Assembly (NCBI GenBank): GCA_945860125.1
Contig: CAMAPQ010000013.1
Location: 1 to 45,834 of the forward strand
DNA from: Klebsiella pneumoniae
GTDB lineage: Bacteria; Pseudomonadota; Gammaproteobacteria; Pseudomonadales; CAMAPQ01
Length of the DNA: 45,834 nucleotides
Reading direction: 5' to 3'
Below the pieces are notes generated by a model. It was not told the DNA's origin. It did no database searches and saw only the letters and a list, made by a program, of their open reading frames with translations. Each line of letters begins with the position of its first letter. Position 1 is the first letter of the stretch. Both the position numbers and the translations under genes were made by a program. Shown in pieces: positions 5,087 to 12,736 of the stretch.

Positions 5087-5112
5087 GTTTCTTGATTCAT
5101 CTCAAAGTATTG

Positions 5113-5214
5113 TAGGGCTTACGCAAAGCTGCTCAGCAAGGCGTCGCGATGAAGACAGTACAAATCGTAGGGCGAGGCGCTACAACAAAGCTGGGCAGCT
5201 TTGCGTAAGCCCTA
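5113..5214. mobile_element. MITE family A, copy 3 (variant, inverted)
   Basis: This 102-bp element has perfect 20-bp terminal inverted repeats (TAGGGCTTACGCAAAGCTGC). Its reverse complement aligns with copies 1 and 2 along its length, including GCTTTGTTGT, GCCTCGCC, TACTGTCTTC and GACGCCTTGCTG. It is more diverged than copies 1 and 2 are from each other. Its left flank is TATTG and its right flank is the start of the family B element. If B is removed, the right flank becomes TATTA, a 4 of 5 match to the left. Confidence 0.75.
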
Positions 5215-5340
5215 TATACCCAAAGTAATTGGAATCACGGTGAGGCGGCAAGCAAGTGAACCCCGTGAGAATAGATAAACTATGTGATTGGGTGAATGAG
5301 CGCAGCCAACAATGCCGTGGTTTCAAGTACGAAGGGTATA
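5215..5340. mobile_element. MITE family B, full copy
   Basis: This is a 126-bp non-coding element with imperfect terminal inverted repeats. One end starts TATACCCAAAGTAATTGGAA; the other, read inward on the opposite strand, starts TATACCCTTCGTACTTGAAA. TA dinucleotides border both ends, which fits insertion at a TA target. It directly abuts family A copy 3 on the left and the stop codon of the DUF4105 gene on the right. A 29-bp end fragment of the same element recurs at 12793-12821. Confidence 0.75.
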
Positions 5341-7347
5341 TTAGTCAAAATAAGTTGCATACTCTATTTCTAAGCTCGTCTCATCGAAGGCTTGTGCATT
5401 AATATTGTTTGCCTTGAGTTTAATGGCGTGATTTTTCTCAAGTTGATAATTAAAAATAAAATGGCTTTCATTGCTCATAAAATAGCTTGCGTCATGCAAG
5501 TATTTCCTTTCAAAATTGAGCATTATTTTCGATTTATTCGATAGTAGATATACAGCATGTGTTTTTAAGCCTAGCCCTGGTTTAGGTGTTTCTGAAAAGT
5601 TAGCGGTGGGTGTTAATAAGGCTTCACCTATTAAAGAAAACTGTAATGTGGGGGTGACGTTGTAGGTTACGCCTCTACCGCCTGATAAAAAAAATCGCCA
5701 TGGTTGCGTGAAAACACGTTGTTGCTCAAAACCGGTTGAAACATGCCATGAAAAAGGCTTAAAAAAATCATCTCGTGGCGAGAGTGAAGTAACATCAACG
5801 AGCGTGAATTTTTCTATTTGGAGATGATTTTCCAGGTCAGCCGATGCTTTGATTTTAAGAAAATCAATACCAGCACCGGCTAAGAATCCCGTATCGTCAT
5901 CGGTAATATCGTGAAAGGCAGGCCGTCCTTCAAAACTAATGTTGGGCTTGTTATCTCGCATGCTAACACTTAACCCTATTTTTGCTGAGCGATGACTGTT
6001 TTCAGGGCTTTCTGGTACCGGTACAGGTGCTGTAGGGCGATAGGGTAAGTGGCTGCGGTGTGATAATAAGTTAAATAATCTAGGGGCATATTCGCCTCGT
6101 TTATGGCGATTTTTTTGTAAGTTTAGCTGAAGATAGTCATGTGCTTCATCGAGAATGCTGGCTTGTTCTTGCGGGGTTTTATCTTTAAGTTCTTTGAAAG
6201 GTGCGTTAATTTTCCCTTCTGCAATGCGCTTAATAAGTTGCTGATCTTTTTTATTGTCAGCTTTTAGACGATGCTTAAGCAAGGTTTGAGCAGAAGGGCG
6301 ATAAGTTGTTTTGGTGACAAATCCATGCTCAAAAAGTACTTTAACGGTGTCCGCTGGAATCGTGTGTGTTGAAAAATGAGTAACTAGTTTTTCTTGTGGG
6401 CGAATGGTTTCAAGCATGCTTAACAATCTATAGGCGCAGTTCTCACCGAAGAAAAAATAATCAAACTTTTTTTGGCGTAATTCCCATAAGTGGCGTACCA
6501 GCTGTTCTACTTCTTGCTGATTAAGATTCAGCGCATATTCCCATGTATCCCTTGATTCAATATCGTTATATTCAATAATTTTATCGTAATAGGGCGCGCC
6601 CGCCAGATAGCCTGGGTAGCCGCCTGTTAGACCTTTCCAGACATACAGCCATTGTTTGCCTTTTTTGGGTATTTCAGCCGCATAACCAATGGTATAAGCA
6701 AGATATCTTGTTTTTTCCGTGTGTTGGTTGCTATCTATTCTGAAAAAAATATGGCCAAAAAGCGATGAGGGGTTATTCATAAAAGCTTCAGGGAAAATAA
6801 CGGTGACTTGATTGGGTTGTATCGTGTCATGCCATTTCGTAAATTTTGGACAGATAACTTTAGGGGCTGCTTGTTCAAAACCGTTTATTTGTTGTTTCAT
6901 CCAAAAAAAACGAGCAGGAAATCGGCACTGAGGATGTTCGTCTTTAAGGGCGATATTAGAATTTAAAAACCCGCTAATATTTGCTTCTAATTCTTCTGTT
7001 GGTTTTGTTTTGCCTTGGGGGCTTAAAAAAAACTTATCGTCATCTGTAAAGCTAATCCAGTTAATTGCTTGGGGGTTTATTTGATTTTTTTTCGGGCGTA
7101 ACTTGATGGAGCGATAATCTTTTTTATCTTTGATTTGGTAGTAGTGTAACAGGGTGCGCCATGCTTCACTGTGGCTTAAGTCGGTTAGTTGTGTCTTAGT
7201 GAGGGGGTGCGTTATCGCAGGGCTCGCCTCGCTATAGGGGGTAAAAAAAAATAGTATGAAAACCGCGAATAGGCTTTCTTTTTTTTTGAAAAGAAGTTTT
7301 TTATCGGTAGATTTTTTGAAAAAAAAGTGATTGTAAGTTTGGTGCAT
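5341..7347 (-). CDS. DUF4105 (Lnb N-terminal periplasmic) family protein
   Basis: This is a 668-residue envelope protein of unknown function. A basic start and a hydrophobic segment (SLFAVFILFFFTPYSEAS, about 25-42) look like a signal peptide or membrane anchor. The middle holds the family hallmarks: VTVIFPEAFMNNPSSLFGH with an FRID strand, YTIGYAAEIPKKG, and the conserved FFFGENCAYRLLSMLE (about 300-316), whose Cys and Asn are likely functional. The C-terminal half has alternating strands (residues ~460-668) ending in an aromatic tail, which suggests a beta-rich or outer-membrane-associated domain. It lies downstream of the DUF3015 gene on the same strand. No clear ribosome-binding site precedes the ATG. 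The 3' end abuts MITE B. Function is not established. Confidence 0.8.
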   Translation of the reverse strand: MHQTYNHFFFKKSTDKKLLFKKKESLFAVFILFFFTPYSEASPAITHPLTKTQLTDLSHSEAWRTLLHYYQIKDKKDYRSIKLRPKKNQINPQAINWISFTDDDKFFLSPQGKTKPTEELEANISGFLNSNIALKDEHPQCRFPARFFWMKQQINGFEQAAPKVICPKFTKWHDTIQPNQVTVIFPEAFMNNPSSLFGHIFFRIDSNQHTEKTRYLAYTIGYAAEIPKKGKQWLYVWKGLTGGYPGYLAGAPYYDKIIEYNDIESRDTWEYALNLNQQEVEQLVRHLWELRQKKFDYFFFGENCAYRLLSMLETIRPQEKLVTHFSTHTIPADTVKVLFEHGFVTKTTYRPSAQTLLKHRLKADNKKDQQLIKRIAEGKINAPFKELKDKTPQEQASILDEAHDYLQLNLQKNRHKRGEYAPRLFNLLSHRSHLPYRPTAPVPVPESPENSHRSAKIGLSVSMRDNKPNISFEGRPAFHDITDDDTGFLAGAGIDFLKIKASADLENHLQIEKFTLVDVTSLSPRDDFFKPFSWHVSTGFEQQRVFTQPWRFFLSGGRGVTYNVTPTLQFSLIGEALLTPTANFSETPKPGLGLKTHAVYLLSNKSKIMLNFERKYLHDASYFMSNESHFIFNYQLEKNHAIKLKANNINAQAFDETSLEIEYATYFD

Positions 7348-7419
7348 GAAATTTTATGGTGTTTGAGAAGTCGGTTGTTTTAATCTTAGTTGAATATATG
7401 ATTTTAGTTAAATGCGGGG

Positions 7420-7470
7420 GCACAAGACAAAACAAGTAGCAAACTTAACGCTGTTGGTTTTGTCTTGTGC
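7420..7470 (-). promoter_or_regulatory. 14-bp perfect inverted repeat between the DUF3015 and DUF4105 genes
   Basis: GCACAAGACAAAAC at 7420-7433 is exactly complementary to GTTTTGTCTTGTGC at 7457-7470, with a 23-base loop in which a further short pairing (CAACAGC with GCTACTTG, imperfect) is possible. It lies 33 bp past the DUF3015 stop and 72 bp before the DUF4105 start. No T-run follows on the minus strand, so a partial terminator, an RNA processing site or a stabilising stem is as likely as a full terminator. Confidence 0.5.
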
Positions 7471-7503
7471 TTAATATTGCAATTTTAAAATCATTAAGAT
7501 TGA

Positions 7504-7995
7504 TTAAATAATCGGCGCATATTGCTTAAGCGTGCTTTCATTTTTCATGATGCTTGTGAGTGACGCTAAAACATCTGTGCGTGTCACGTTAGCGTTAGAA
7601 TAAATTTTATTAAAGTTTTCTTTTGTGTATGAGAAAAATAAAGATTGGTGTGCTTGATCTTTGATGCCCAATAATGAGGCTAAAGATTCTAATGCTTCAC
7701 CTTCTCCACGTGACATATCACGGGCAACTTTATCAATATTTGAATCAAGAAATTTGTTTAGTGCCATAAAGCCTTTGGCTGCACTGTGGTCACATCCTAG
7801 AGTACCGCTGGTCATCCCAAAAGTTTGATTGCCAAATACACCGTTGGTGGTTGCAGCCATTGCGTTAGGGGCAATACCTTCTTTTCCTTCAAAAACCATT
7901 GTGCCAAAACCGCATCCTGCATCGCTTGCTGCAAAACTAGCCGAGCTTGCGGCGATAAGGGTAAGTGCGCATATTGTTTTGATTGACTGTTTCAT
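7504..7995 (-). CDS. DUF3015 family exported protein
   Basis: This 163-residue protein has a clear Sec signal peptide (KQSIKTICALTLIAASSASFAAS; cleavage likely after SFA, about residue 22). The mature part opens with DAGCGFGTMVFEG and continues through a Gly/Thr-rich stretch with TSGTLGC, the Cys-containing pattern of the DUF3015 family. A helical C-terminal half follows. The two conserved Cys may form a disulfide in the periplasm. The gene lies 156 bp upstream of the DUF4105 gene on the same strand, and I recall the two families as frequent neighbours, so a shared envelope role is likely but unproven. The start ATG is preceded by GGAAGAAG. No function is known. Confidence 0.85.
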   Translation of the reverse strand: MKQSIKTICALTLIAASSASFAASDAGCGFGTMVFEGKEGIAPNAMAATTNGVFGNQTFGMTSGTLGCDHSAAKGFMALNKFLDSNIDKVARDMSRGEGEALESLASLLGIKDQAHQSLFFSYTKENFNKIYSNANVTRTDVLASLTSIMKNESTLKQYAPII

Positions 7996-9994: not shown

Positions 9995-12736
9995 ATGGCG
10001 AAGCGTCCAAAGCAGTCCAAGACTGGTCAACCTAAGACGTGGCAACAGGAAGATCCTAACTTGGGTCAAGAGCAACAAAAATATGAGAAGCCGGTTCCGA
10101 GTCGCGATCTAATTATTACAAAACTACAGCAATCTCAGGGTCCTTCGACACTTGAGGAATTGTGTGAGGCTTTTAGTTTACAAGATGATGCTGATGCGGT
10201 GGAAGGCGTAAGAAGACGCTTAAGAGCAATGGAGCGCGACGGCCAGCTTCTGAGGAATCGTCGTGGTGCTTATGGTTCTATTTCTAAAATGGATTTAGTG
10301 CCAGGTATTGTGCAGGGTCATCGGGATGGGCATGGTTTGTTATATCCTGAGGCGGGGGGCGAGTCCCTTATTTTGCCGCCAAAACAGATGAAACGTGTTT
10401 TCCCCGGCGATCGCGTTTTATGTTGCGTCGTTGAAGTGGATCGTCGTGGTAAGAAAATTGGTGCCATTGTTGAGGTGGTTGAGAGTAATACCAAGCAAGT
10501 TGTCGGTCGTTTTTTTGAAGATTATGGCGTGGGCATGGTTGAGCCTGATAATAAAAAAATTGCACATAATATCCTTATCCCTAAAGAACACCAGCTAGAA
10601 ACGCCTAGTGGCAAGCTCGTTGTTTGTGAAATTTTGATGCAGCCTGATGGACGTCAGCAACCTATTGGTAAAATCATTGAGGTGTTAGGTGATCATTTAG
10701 CGCCTGGGATGGAAATTGATATTGCCGTGCGTTCTCATGGTATTCCTTACGTTTGGCCACAAGAAGTCTTGGCTGAAGTGCAGAAAATACCGGCAGAGCT
10801 TGAAGCGTTAGAGTATAAAAATCGTTTTGATTTACGCGATCTTCCTTTTGTGACCATTGATGGTGAAGATGCTAAAGATTTTGACGATGCTGTTTTTTGT
10901 CAAAAAATTAAAGGCGGTGGTTGGCAGTTATCTGTTGCAATTGCTGATGTTTCCCATTATGTGCGAGTAGAGAGTGCGCTGGAAAAAGAGGCGAAGACTC
11001 GTTCAACTTCGGTTTATTTTCCTAACCGCGTTATTCCGATGTTGCCTGAGATTTTGTCCAATGGTTTGTGCTCATTAAATCCTGCGCAAGATCGTTTTGT
11101 TTTAGTTTGTACCATGAGCATTTCTAAGAAGGGTGTTATTACTGATTTTTATTTTTCTGAGGCTGTTATTCATTCCAAGGCGCGTTTTACGTATACGCGG
11201 GTTGGCTCATTTTTAGACGCAATGAATGCGGGCACGGCATTAGAGCACGAGTTAAGCATTGCGTTACCCCATCTCGTTCAGCCGCTTACCCATTTGTATG
11301 GTTTATATCATGCTTTGAAAAAAGCGCGTTCGTTAAGAGGGGCGATTGAGTTTGAAACGGTTGAAACAAAGATTGTTTTTGATGAAAACCATAAAATTCG
11401 TGAAATTTTACCTGTTGAGCGTAACGATGCTCATCGCTTAATTGAAGAGTGCATGTTAGCGGCCAACGTGTGTGCGGCAGGCGTGCTTACTATTCATGAG
11501 TTACCTGTACTGTATCGTGTTCATCGTGGTCCACTTGAAGAAAAGCTTGAGAAGTTACGTGAGTTTTTAGCGCCGCTTGGTTTTTCGTTGCCGAAGAAAA
11601 AAGAAGTGAAACCTGAGGATTTGCAGGCAATTCTTGAGCAAGCAAAAGGAAGGCCGGATCAAAACCTTATTCAGACTGTTATGTTGCGCTCTATGGGGCA
11701 GGCTGTTTATACGCCTGAGAATAACGGTCATTTTGGTTTAAATTATGATGAGTATGCTCATTTTACGTCGCCCATCAGGCGTTATCCTGATTTATTAGTT
11801 CATCGTTCTTTGCGTTTTTTAATTCGTTCTAAAATTGAAAGTGCGCATGTTGAAAGAGTGAAGGGCGTGAAGGCGGTTAATAAAAAAGATTGGATTCCTT
11901 ACAATCCCAAACAGATGATTGAGTTGGGTGATACTTGTTCGTTGAGTGAACGCCGTGCTGATGAAGCGACGCGTGATGCGGTATCTTGGTTGAAGTGTGA
12001 TTATATAAAAAATCACGTGGGTGAAGAGTATAACGGTGTAATCTCTGGCGTTACTGCTTTTGGTTTCTTTGTTGAGCTTTCTGGTGTGTATATTGACGGA
12101 TTAGTGCATGTTTCAACCCTCAATAATGACTATTATCACTTCGATGCTGCCCGTCATCGTTTGGTGGGGGAGCTTACGCAGACTTGTTTTTCTTTAGGTC
12201 AAAAAGTGCGTGTTCTTGTCGCCAAAGTAAATGTGGATGATAAGAAAATTGATTTTAGTTTGGTTCATGCCTATTCAGCTGCGCCCAAAGTATCTGGATC
12301 AAAAGCATCGCCTATATTAAAAAAATCAGAGCTAAAAAAGCCAGAGTCAAAAATCTCTAAAAAAGATGAGAAGCGCAAAGGTTTATCTGTTGATAAGCAG
12401 GTTGTTAAGCTTAAAGAAGCTGATAAAGGGAAGATACCTCTTAAAACGAAAGGGTCTTCTCTTAAGGCGAAAGAGTCTCTTAAGGCGAAAGCTTCTGTTG
12501 ATAAAGCGAAAGCGCCTATTAATAAAACGAAAGCACCTGCTCAAGCCAAACCACCGATTAAGTCAAAAGCAGTTGTGAAAGAGAAGGCGGTTGCGACCAT
12601 AAAACCGGCTGCAAAAGAAAAACCGGCTGCAAAAGAAAAAGTAGCTGTTAAAGCAAAAAAAGCATTGGCTGAACCTCAGAAAAAAGCGCCTGTAAAAAAG
12701 CGCTTGCAGGTAGAGAAAGTACCGGCTAAGAAGTAG
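9995..12736 (+). CDS. rnr: Ribonuclease R
   Basis: This is a 3'-5' hydrolytic exoribonuclease of the RNB family that degrades structured RNA, rRNA and defective tRNA. Its 913 residues show an N-terminal winged-helix region (about 35-95), two cold-shock-like OB folds, and the RNB core with DGEDAKDFDDAVFC (about 288-301) carrying the metal-binding Asp residues. HFTSPIRRYPDLLVHRSL follows, then an S1 domain starting near EYNGVISGVTAFGFFVEL (about 674). The last ~145 residues are a very repetitive Lys/Ala/Pro-rich tail built on KAK/KEK units. E. coli RNase R is about 813 residues, so the tail is longer than usual. A good AGAGAG site precedes the ATG. The tail probably aids RNA or ribosome binding. 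Confidence 0.95.
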   Translation: MAKRPKQSKTGQPKTWQQEDPNLGQEQQKYEKPVPSRDLIITKLQQSQGPSTLEELCEAFSLQDDADAVEGVRRRLRAMERDGQLLRNRRGAYGSISKMDLVPGIVQGHRDGHGLLYPEAGGESLILPPKQMKRVFPGDRVLCCVVEVDRRGKKIGAIVEVVESNTKQVVGRFFEDYGVGMVEPDNKKIAHNILIPKEHQLETPSGKLVVCEILMQPDGRQQPIGKIIEVLGDHLAPGMEIDIAVRSHGIPYVWPQEVLAEVQKIPAELEALEYKNRFDLRDLPFVTIDGEDAKDFDDAVFCQKIKGGGWQLSVAIADVSHYVRVESALEKEAKTRSTSVYFPNRVIPMLPEILSNGLCSLNPAQDRFVLVCTMSISKKGVITDFYFSEAVIHSKARFTYTRVGSFLDAMNAGTALEHELSIALPHLVQPLTHLYGLYHALKKARSLRGAIEFETVETKIVFDENHKIREILPVERNDAHRLIEECMLAANVCAAGVLTIHELPVLYRVHRGPLEEKLEKLREFLAPLGFSLPKKKEVKPEDLQAILEQAKGRPDQNLIQTVMLRSMGQAVYTPENNGHFGLNYDEYAHFTSPIRRYPDLLVHRSLRFLIRSKIESAHVERVKGVKAVNKKDWIPYNPKQMIELGDTCSLSERRADEATRDAVSWLKCDYIKNHVGEEYNGVISGVTAFGFFVELSGVYIDGLVHVSTLNNDYYHFDAARHRLVGELTQTCFSLGQKVRVLVAKVNVDDKKIDFSLVHAYSAAPKVSGSKASPILKKSELKKPESKISKKDEKRKGLSVDKQVVKLKEADKGKIPLKTKGSSLKAKESLKAKASVDKAKAPINKTKAPAQAKPPIKSKAVVKEKAVATIKPAAKEKPAAKEKVAVKAKKALAEPQKKAPVKKRLQVEKVPAKK

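Follow-up and report, generated by a model that had tools for sequence, protein, structure and literature searches.

The contig analysed here, CAMAPQ010000013.1 (45,834 nucleotides (nt); hereafter the window), encodes on its minus strand a DUF3015 protein followed by a DUF4105 protein with an Lnb_N domain, both carrying export signals and neither showing a lipobox, as judged by eye (Table 1). Our data support the DUF3015-DUF4105 pair being a conserved two-gene unit, and the pair of the window is best read as the reduced, two-gene form of a cassette found across Pseudomonadota. With moderate confidence we regard it as an outer-membrane cassette for acyl transfer or lipid remodelling, reduced to two genes in this organism. 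Both open reading frames (ORFs) on one strand and the perfect 14-bp inverted repeat between them, on which the original prediction for this DNA was built, are present; that prediction made no mention of an invariant His199, of a C-terminal barrel or of a third gene that is frequent in other species.

Co-inheritance and synteny of DUF3015 and DUF4105

We analysed two samples, 95 genomes of the same order as the window (order sample) and 299 genomes sampled evenly across the phylum (phylum sample), which have seven DUF3015 genomes in common; all Fisher tests are given without correction for kinship. In the order sample, PF13387 (Lnb_N) is found in 46 and PF11220 (DUF3015) in 34 of the 95 genomes, with Lnb_N being present in all 34 DUF3015 genomes compared to 12 of the 61 others (Fisher 5.6e-16). 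The phylum sample has DUF3015 in 30 and Lnb_N in 64 of 299 genomes, the latter in 30/30 DUF3015 genomes and in 34 of the 269 others (Fisher 1e-23). DUF3015 lies directly upstream of DUF4105/Lnb_N on the same strand in 33 of the 34 cases of the order sample and directly upstream at 27 of the 32 DUF3015 places of the phylum sample, where the order is reversed once (G116) and four places are unlinked. The neighbourhood is non-random, in line with the idea that the two genes belong together, and the occurrence of DUF3015 solely in genomes holding Lnb_N in both samples argues for DUF3015 being a dedicated partner. The match strengths of the two families rise together (Spearman 0.82 for 54 linked pairs, including the reversed pair of G116 and omitting the fragmented genome G190, without kinship correction), and each family has a single copy in the genome of the window, as judged by profile searches.

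A further 110 loci, 30 from the order sample and 80 from named genomes including Pseudomonas, Vibrio, Marinobacter, Photobacterium, Pseudoalteromonas, Gallionella and others, were collected by similarity and are by construction biased towards the window type. DUF3015 is directly upstream in 30/30 of the former, the window's own locus included, and in 76/80 of the latter. The four exceptions are all from Pseudomonas and encode DUF3015 elsewhere in the genome, with no second DUF4105 copy within about 1.5 kb of it. The outer neighbours of the pair are diverse, falling into 30 clusters for 74 upstream and 29 clusters for 73 downstream genes, the largest of which comprise 14 and 17 loci, respectively.

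The DUF4105 protein has an invariant His-Cys domain and a predicted outer-membrane barrel

The DUF4105 protein matches Lnb_N (PF13387, renamed DUF4105) with 180.2 bits compared to a gathering cut-off of 22.2 and shows the Pfam domain order DUF7843 (56-153), Lnb_N (169-340), DUF7842 (347-436) and DUF7840 (445-668). A Cys and an Asn in a GENCAYRLL segment had been proposed to be catalytic, to be doubted if poorly conserved. Both residues, Asn303 and Cys304 within FFGENCAYRLL (residues 299-309), are identical in all 110 DUF4105 sequences, i.e. the window and 109 others, as are His199, Arg266, Trp269, Glu270 and Tyr271. However, these sequences point to His199 and Cys304, in a permuted NlpC/P60 (Lnb/LRAT-like) domain, as the most likely catalytic pair, His199 preceding Cys304 by 105 residues, which is the order required of this superfamily. 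DUF4105 has been placed in the permuted NlpC/P60 group, which is described as lipid-acting, with the phospholipase Tox-Act1, requiring His43 and Cys151, as a sister clade of DUF4105 (passages of PMC12994826). The window protein shares the order of His before Cys (H199/C304) with Tox-Act1, TseH and LRAT; it differs from these permuted enzymes in being a chromosomal, predicted outer-membrane protein accompanied by DUF3015 and not a secreted toxin. A catalytic His199/Cys304 pair in such a domain makes acyl-lipid chemistry likelier than a proteolytic role, and this chemistry is inferred from homology.

The AlphaFold2 model of the DUF4105 protein, built from the window and 46 further sequences, has a mean predicted local distance difference test score (pLDDT) of 88.3 and a predicted template modelling score of 0.86. 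Twelve long strands and a further three-residue one make up residues 455-667, a part that in VIA-align resembles the barrels Tsx (Z 15.3), NanC (15.1), KdgM (14.3), OMPLA (12.0) and LpxR (11.8). The beta-rich C-terminal half of the original prediction is real as a beta-rich part, but it makes up the last third of the protein. An aromatic residue at the C-terminus is the usual signature of outer-membrane barrels, and all 105 full-length DUF4105 sequences have one at the last or penultimate position (97 at the last). The DUF4105 protein thus appears to be an outer-membrane protein by its model, and since the number of strands is even, the catalytic domain preceding the barrel is expected on the periplasmic side, next to the inner leaflet of the outer membrane. 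At or within the barrel, His452, His479 and Trp534 are conserved in 109 of 110 rows, while most barrel columns are variable.

The alignments behind these comparisons comprise 29 of the 30 order-sample sequences (A1; L023, which is split over two frames, is left out but counted for adjacency) and the window plus 46 of the 80 named-genome loci (A2; full-length, below 80% identity). In a tree of 26 domains, including 10 of the 46 of A2, the DUF3015-linked barrels cluster at just 85/86 support with long branches elsewhere, and for this reason we claim no single origin for them.

The DUF3015 protein and variants of the pair

The DUF3015 protein matches PF11220 with 144.8 bits (gathering cut-off 25) and has two conserved cysteines, Cys28 and Cys68, present in 105 of 106 rows with a gap in the remaining one. 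Alignment A3 holds 36 sequences, the window and 35 of 36 non-redundant DUF3015 proteins, omitting L039 at a contig end. The AlphaFold2 model has a mean pLDDT of 74.6 with a well modelled helical domain (70-162), and sequence comparison of the protein with solved structures gave no meaningful relative. In the literature searched, passages mentioning DUF3015 consist of an entry in a Leptospira expression table. PA4607, a possible DUF3015 gene of P. aeruginosa, appears in the published passages as table entries only. VC1210 and VC1211 were guesses based on neighbouring genes in Vibrio and were rejected, since the published passages describe them as a cytosolic, nucleotidyltransferase-like protein and an EAL protein.

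Several loci depart from the common arrangement. DUF3015 occurs in two tandem copies ahead of the DUF4105 gene at L043:3176-4169, and three orphan DUF3015 genes (L124, L125, L137) lie far from any DUF4105 match, two of these being flanked by genes resembling a carbon-starvation permease and radA (named by eye). Genome G093 holds an orphan DUF3015 and the hydrolase described below, without a barrel-type DUF4105 match; its Lnb_N (L123) is joined to DUF7844 (E 3.7e-110) and has no DUF7840 match. At L132:3004-3531, a gene for a small exported protein overlaps a barrel-type DUF4105 gene, and its product retains the pattern typical of DUF3015, Cys-x-x-Gly, Leu-Phe, Gly-Cys, Gly-x-Gly (hhalign E 0.02, probability only 2%); it is perhaps a very divergent DUF3015. 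The DUF4105 paralogues L120, L130 and L131 show a DUF7840 match, partly weak, and lack DUF3015; directly upstream they have a gene for a small lipoprotein (..GCA[ST][IV]I..), with a PEGA domain in L131, which perhaps constitutes a like arrangement with a different partner.

A lipoprotein hydrolase is a frequent third gene

A lipoprotein alpha/beta-hydrolase is encoded directly downstream of the DUF4105 gene in 52 of the 110 loci (34/80 named-genome and 18/30 order-sample loci, the counts being lower bounds as the order-sample stretches stop soon after the DUF4105 gene) and divergently nearby in five more. The two ORFs as called overlap by about 30 nt in many loci, chiefly of Marinobacter; the pair has no adjoining hydrolase gene at the loci of Pseudomonas, Vibrio, Photobacterium and Pseudoalteromonas. 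All 17 aligned sequences (alignment A4, 17 of 33 full-length hydrolases) share the lipobox Cys, Ser141, Asp224 and His252. The protein matches Hydrolase_4 in Pfam (E 5.7e-22), and among solved structures it is closest to an esterase (E 3.4e-13), followed by lower-scoring monoglyceride lipases and further alpha/beta-hydrolases; NCBIfam gave no hydrolase family above cut-off for the three proteins searched. Together with the Lnb-like domain, this esterase/lipase-like third gene favours lipid or lipoprotein acyl chemistry over proteolysis.

At E <= 1e-20 a hydrolase match is found in 36 of the 95 order-sample genomes, 25 of them scoring above 270 bits and the next 194, a line drawn after the scores were seen. 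Of the 25 strong-hydrolase genomes, 23 have DUF3015, and in 21 the hydrolase gene immediately follows the pair (Fisher 9.6e-12). Among 17 further genomes a match is present in 14 and absent from a Vibrio genome, a Pseudoalteromonas genome and G377; the hydrolase lies far from the pair in all five Pseudomonas genomes and in six genomes of one family.

In the window, the place occupied in many species by the hydrolase gene holds an element of 106 bp whose ends are inverted repeats (25 bp, 96%), situated between the pair and a convergent gene for a P-loop NTPase. The 2.58-Mb genome contains at least 41 copies including this one, 79-100% identical (40 of 144 candidates scored).

A hairpin in the spacer may set the expression ratio

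The 14-bp stem sits inside a longer 21-nt repeat (86%) in the 156-nt spacer between the two genes of the window. None of 30 mononucleotide shuffles of the spacer gave a stem as good, and none of 200 dinucleotide shuffles equalled its RNA fold of -33.6 kcal/mol; Rfam had no match in the window at gathering scores. Across the collected loci, perfect stems of at least 8 bp are found in 69 and of at least 10 bp in 35 of 98 spacers, the other 8 of the 106 being under 25 nt. For spacers of 60-150 nt, a stem of at least 8 bp is present in 30 of 39 pair spacers compared to 32 of 104 co-directional controls from these loci and to 3 of 39 spacers after shuffling. Longest-ORF models and a 25-240 nt gap filter left 49 of the 76 paired loci from named genomes for this comparison, 39 of them in this length class. 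The stem starts at a median of about 17 nt past the DUF3015 stop, its position but not its sequence being kept across species. This enrichment in other species makes a role in setting the expression ratio, as had been proposed, plausible though unproven, and it supports a model according to which the second gene is less expressed due to partial termination or mRNA processing.

There is a substantial, if lesser, probability that the two genes are separate transcription units and the hairpin an ordinary terminator of DUF3015 that sets no ratio. T-rich tails behind 18 of 30 pair-spacer stems fit this, and so does a weak promoter-like site of the minus strand (7430-7401), although such sites are no more numerous in the region than in shuffles. 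However, the spacers are short (median 87 nt, 49 measured), synteny is near-complete, and the window hairpin is followed by CCCCGCATTT instead of a T-run, thus departing from an intrinsic terminator.

Coexistence with Lnt and OMPLA

Lnt acts at the inner membrane and is thought to complete lipoprotein acylation there. The reading of the DUF4105 protein as a true Lnb, i.e. an enzyme N-acylating diacyl lipoproteins as the main or back-up lipoprotein N-acyltransferase, draws on its Lnb_N domain and weak equivalog match as well as on the report that DUF4105 is the lipoprotein N-acyltransferase Lnb of Bacteroides, shown by others (passages of PMC12994826). Both proteins are exported and have an Lnb_N domain with conserved His and Cys, and the His and Asn-Cys motifs of the window type align with L121, a transmembrane (TM)-type Lnb_N whose genome lacks Lnt (hhalign E 7.2e-7, probability 92%). 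We nevertheless consider this reading unlikely. The window protein differs from Lnb by its 12-stranded DUF7840 barrel, its DUF7843 domain, its DUF3015 partner and a coexisting Lnt, and it reaches 22 bits compared to the 550-bit cut-off of the Lnb equivalog NF051878. Canonical Lnt (TIGR00546) is above cut-off in 92 of 95 order-sample genomes, including all 34 with DUF3015 and the genome of the window (G000:C69:440-1663, 309 bits), and the barrel puts the DUF4105 enzyme at the outer membrane, unlike Lnt. A role in ordinary N-ACYLTRANSFERASE, replacing Lnt, was on these grounds rejected as the main job; the presence of Lnt in the window's genome suggests that the DUF4105 enzyme does a separate one.

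Three genomes fall below the Lnt cut-off, G051 (75% complete) as well as G043 and G080 (99-100% complete, one family), and none has DUF3015. The Lnb_N proteins of G043 and G080 (L121, L122) have hydrophobic C-termini, as seen by eye, and no DUF7840, in keeping with expectation for a true Lnb that stands in for Lnt; from their sequences, these two relatives likely represent a natural Lnt-to-Lnb swap within a proteobacterial order. Within this one order, the barrel-less form goes with the absence of Lnt, in one family only, whereas the barrel form coexists with Lnt.

OMPLA (PldA) resembles the window protein in its 12-stranded outer-membrane barrel (VIA-align root-mean-square deviation 4.7 over 189 aligned residues) and in the predicted action on outer-membrane lipids. 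The active site of OMPLA lies on the barrel itself, whereas that of the window protein is predicted to be in a separate periplasmic Cys domain; moreover, PF02253 has no match to the window protein at E <= 0.01. PldA and DUF3015-pair families are not complementary in the 95 genomes: PldA is found in 21/34 DUF3015 genomes compared to 25/61 others (Fisher p 0.06, the wrong direction), and a replacement of OMPLA by the pair was rejected. PagP and LpxR perform lipid chemistry within an outer-membrane barrel, that of PagP being smaller, and LpxR is among the fold matches given above; the His-Cys domain of the window protein differs from both in being a separate periplasmic domain.

Peptidase or channel functions

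Secreted proteases typically have a dedicated small partner, as DUF3015 would be if the DUF4105 protein were an NlpC/P60-type cysteine peptidase, amidase or peptidoglycan hydrolase of the envelope, DUF3015 then acting as its substrate, inhibitor or chaperone. The invariance of Cys, His and Asn fits such an enzyme, and passages of a 2023 survey class DUF4105 as papain-like, with gene context suggesting possible support of transporters or translocation (PMC10318531). This is improbable in our view, as the permuted NlpC/P60 members are described as lipid-acting, the closest relatives described as tested are Lnb and Tox-Act1 (both in passages of PMC12994826), and the third gene often linked encodes an esterase/lipase-like lipoprotein. 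Of the envelope processing system envisaged in the original prediction, the location is backed by the signal peptides and the barrel, but acyl-lipid chemistry is likelier than proteolytic processing. It is very unlikely that the function resides in the barrel, as a channel or lipid exporter, with the His-Cys domain merely gating or binding a ligand, since despite channel-forming 12-stranded barrels such as Tsx, NanC and KdgM being the best fold matches and the conserved His452, His479 and Trp534, it is His199, Asn303 and Cys304 that are invariant and most barrel columns that vary.

A model for a proposed outer-membrane cassette

For an outer-membrane acyl-transfer or lipid-remodelling cassette, we propose a mechanism in which Cys304, activated by His199, would accept an acyl chain from a phospholipid of the outer membrane, forming a thioester, and hand it to an acceptor, which may be an amine on a lipoprotein of the outer membrane, another lipid or water. 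DUF3015 would be the dedicated periplasmic partner of the DUF4105 enzyme, with activator, substrate carrier or acceptor as candidate roles, and would be made in excess due to the hairpin lowering read-through into the enzyme gene. The lipoprotein hydrolase, where present, would remove leftover lysophospholipid, and Lnt would perform the ordinary N-acylation in the window's genome.

We put forward tentatively a more far-reaching version, an outer-membrane acylation-deacylation machine in which a barrel-anchored thiol acyltransferase at the inner leaflet moves phospholipid acyl chains to outer-membrane acceptors, abundant DUF3015 drives or feeds it and the co-encoded hydrolase clears lysophospholipid, providing a second site besides inner-membrane Lnt. 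The machine might operate in Pseudomonas, Marinobacter and relatives, and in hydrolase-less form in the tested Vibrio genome and the organism of the window. If the cassette reading is true, many Gram-negative bacteria that keep Lnt, some of them from genera that include laboratory strains, would have a hitherto unrecognised second location for acyl transfer or phospholipid turnover, and it would bear jointly on DUF3015, DUF7840, DUF7843 and a lipoprotein hydrolase family.

Several results weigh against the cassette. The genome of the window (G000) has no hydrolase match at E <= 1e-20 and thus lacks the three-gene arrangement, so that a lysophospholipid-clearing step would not be general, and PldA does not complement the hydrolase, being found in 17 of 23 DUF3015 genomes with it and in 4 of 11 without. 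Of the Lnb_N places, 21 of 54 in the order sample, some barrel-type, are not beside a Pfam-detectable DUF3015, and in the phylum sample 53 of 80 have no neighbouring DUF3015 match; many places without an adjoining DUF3015 are shorter or of other architecture, L119, L120 and L132 being barrel-type. For the enzyme, the Lnb equivalog match is weak (E 6.2e-5), the fold of the catalytic domain was not recovered among solved structures because the best 50 Foldseek and best 50 VIA-align matches of the DUF4105 model, with no papain-like chain among them, were filled by barrels, and a profile search of sequences in the PDB gave no relative at a meaningful E-value. The literature covered reports neither an activity nor an acceptor for a barrel-type DUF4105 protein. 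For DUF3015, the N-terminal part is poorly modelled, and Foldseek gave no match at E <= 0.001, which carries little weight given the low-confidence N-terminal half. Regarding expression, in addition to the missing T-run, a terminator scan did not list the window hairpin, and T-rich tails are no commoner behind the pair-spacer stems than behind control stems (21 of 32).

The claim that the system is not yet described holds in part: DUF4105 includes Lnb (passages of PMC12994826), but full-text literature searches, with most subscription journals outside their scope, found no description of the pair, the barrel form or the three-gene cassette.

Features of the window

Table 1. Location of the gene pair, its domains and adjacent features in the window.
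Feature	Position	Strand	Description
DUF3015 gene	7504-7995	-	163 aa; Sec-type signal peptide (by eye); PF11220 E 2.1e-42
DUF4105/Lnb_N gene	5341-7347	-	668 aa; signal peptide (by eye); PF13387 E 3.4e-53
Lnb_N catalytic-domain coding region (predicted)	6328-6843	-	PF13387 match in genome search, 183.9 bits
DUF7840 barrel coding region (predicted)	5344-6015	-	about residues 445-668; Pfam limits and modelled strands 455-667
Intergenic hairpin	7420-7470	-	perfect 14-bp stem 7420-7433 / 7457-7470; 23-nt loop; RNA fold z -6.4
106-bp inverted-repeat element	5112-5217	.	downstream of the pair; one of at least 41 genome copies; outside the proposed mechanism

Elsewhere in the window, positions 9995-12736 hold an RNase R-like ORF with a long Lys/Ala-rich C-terminal tail.

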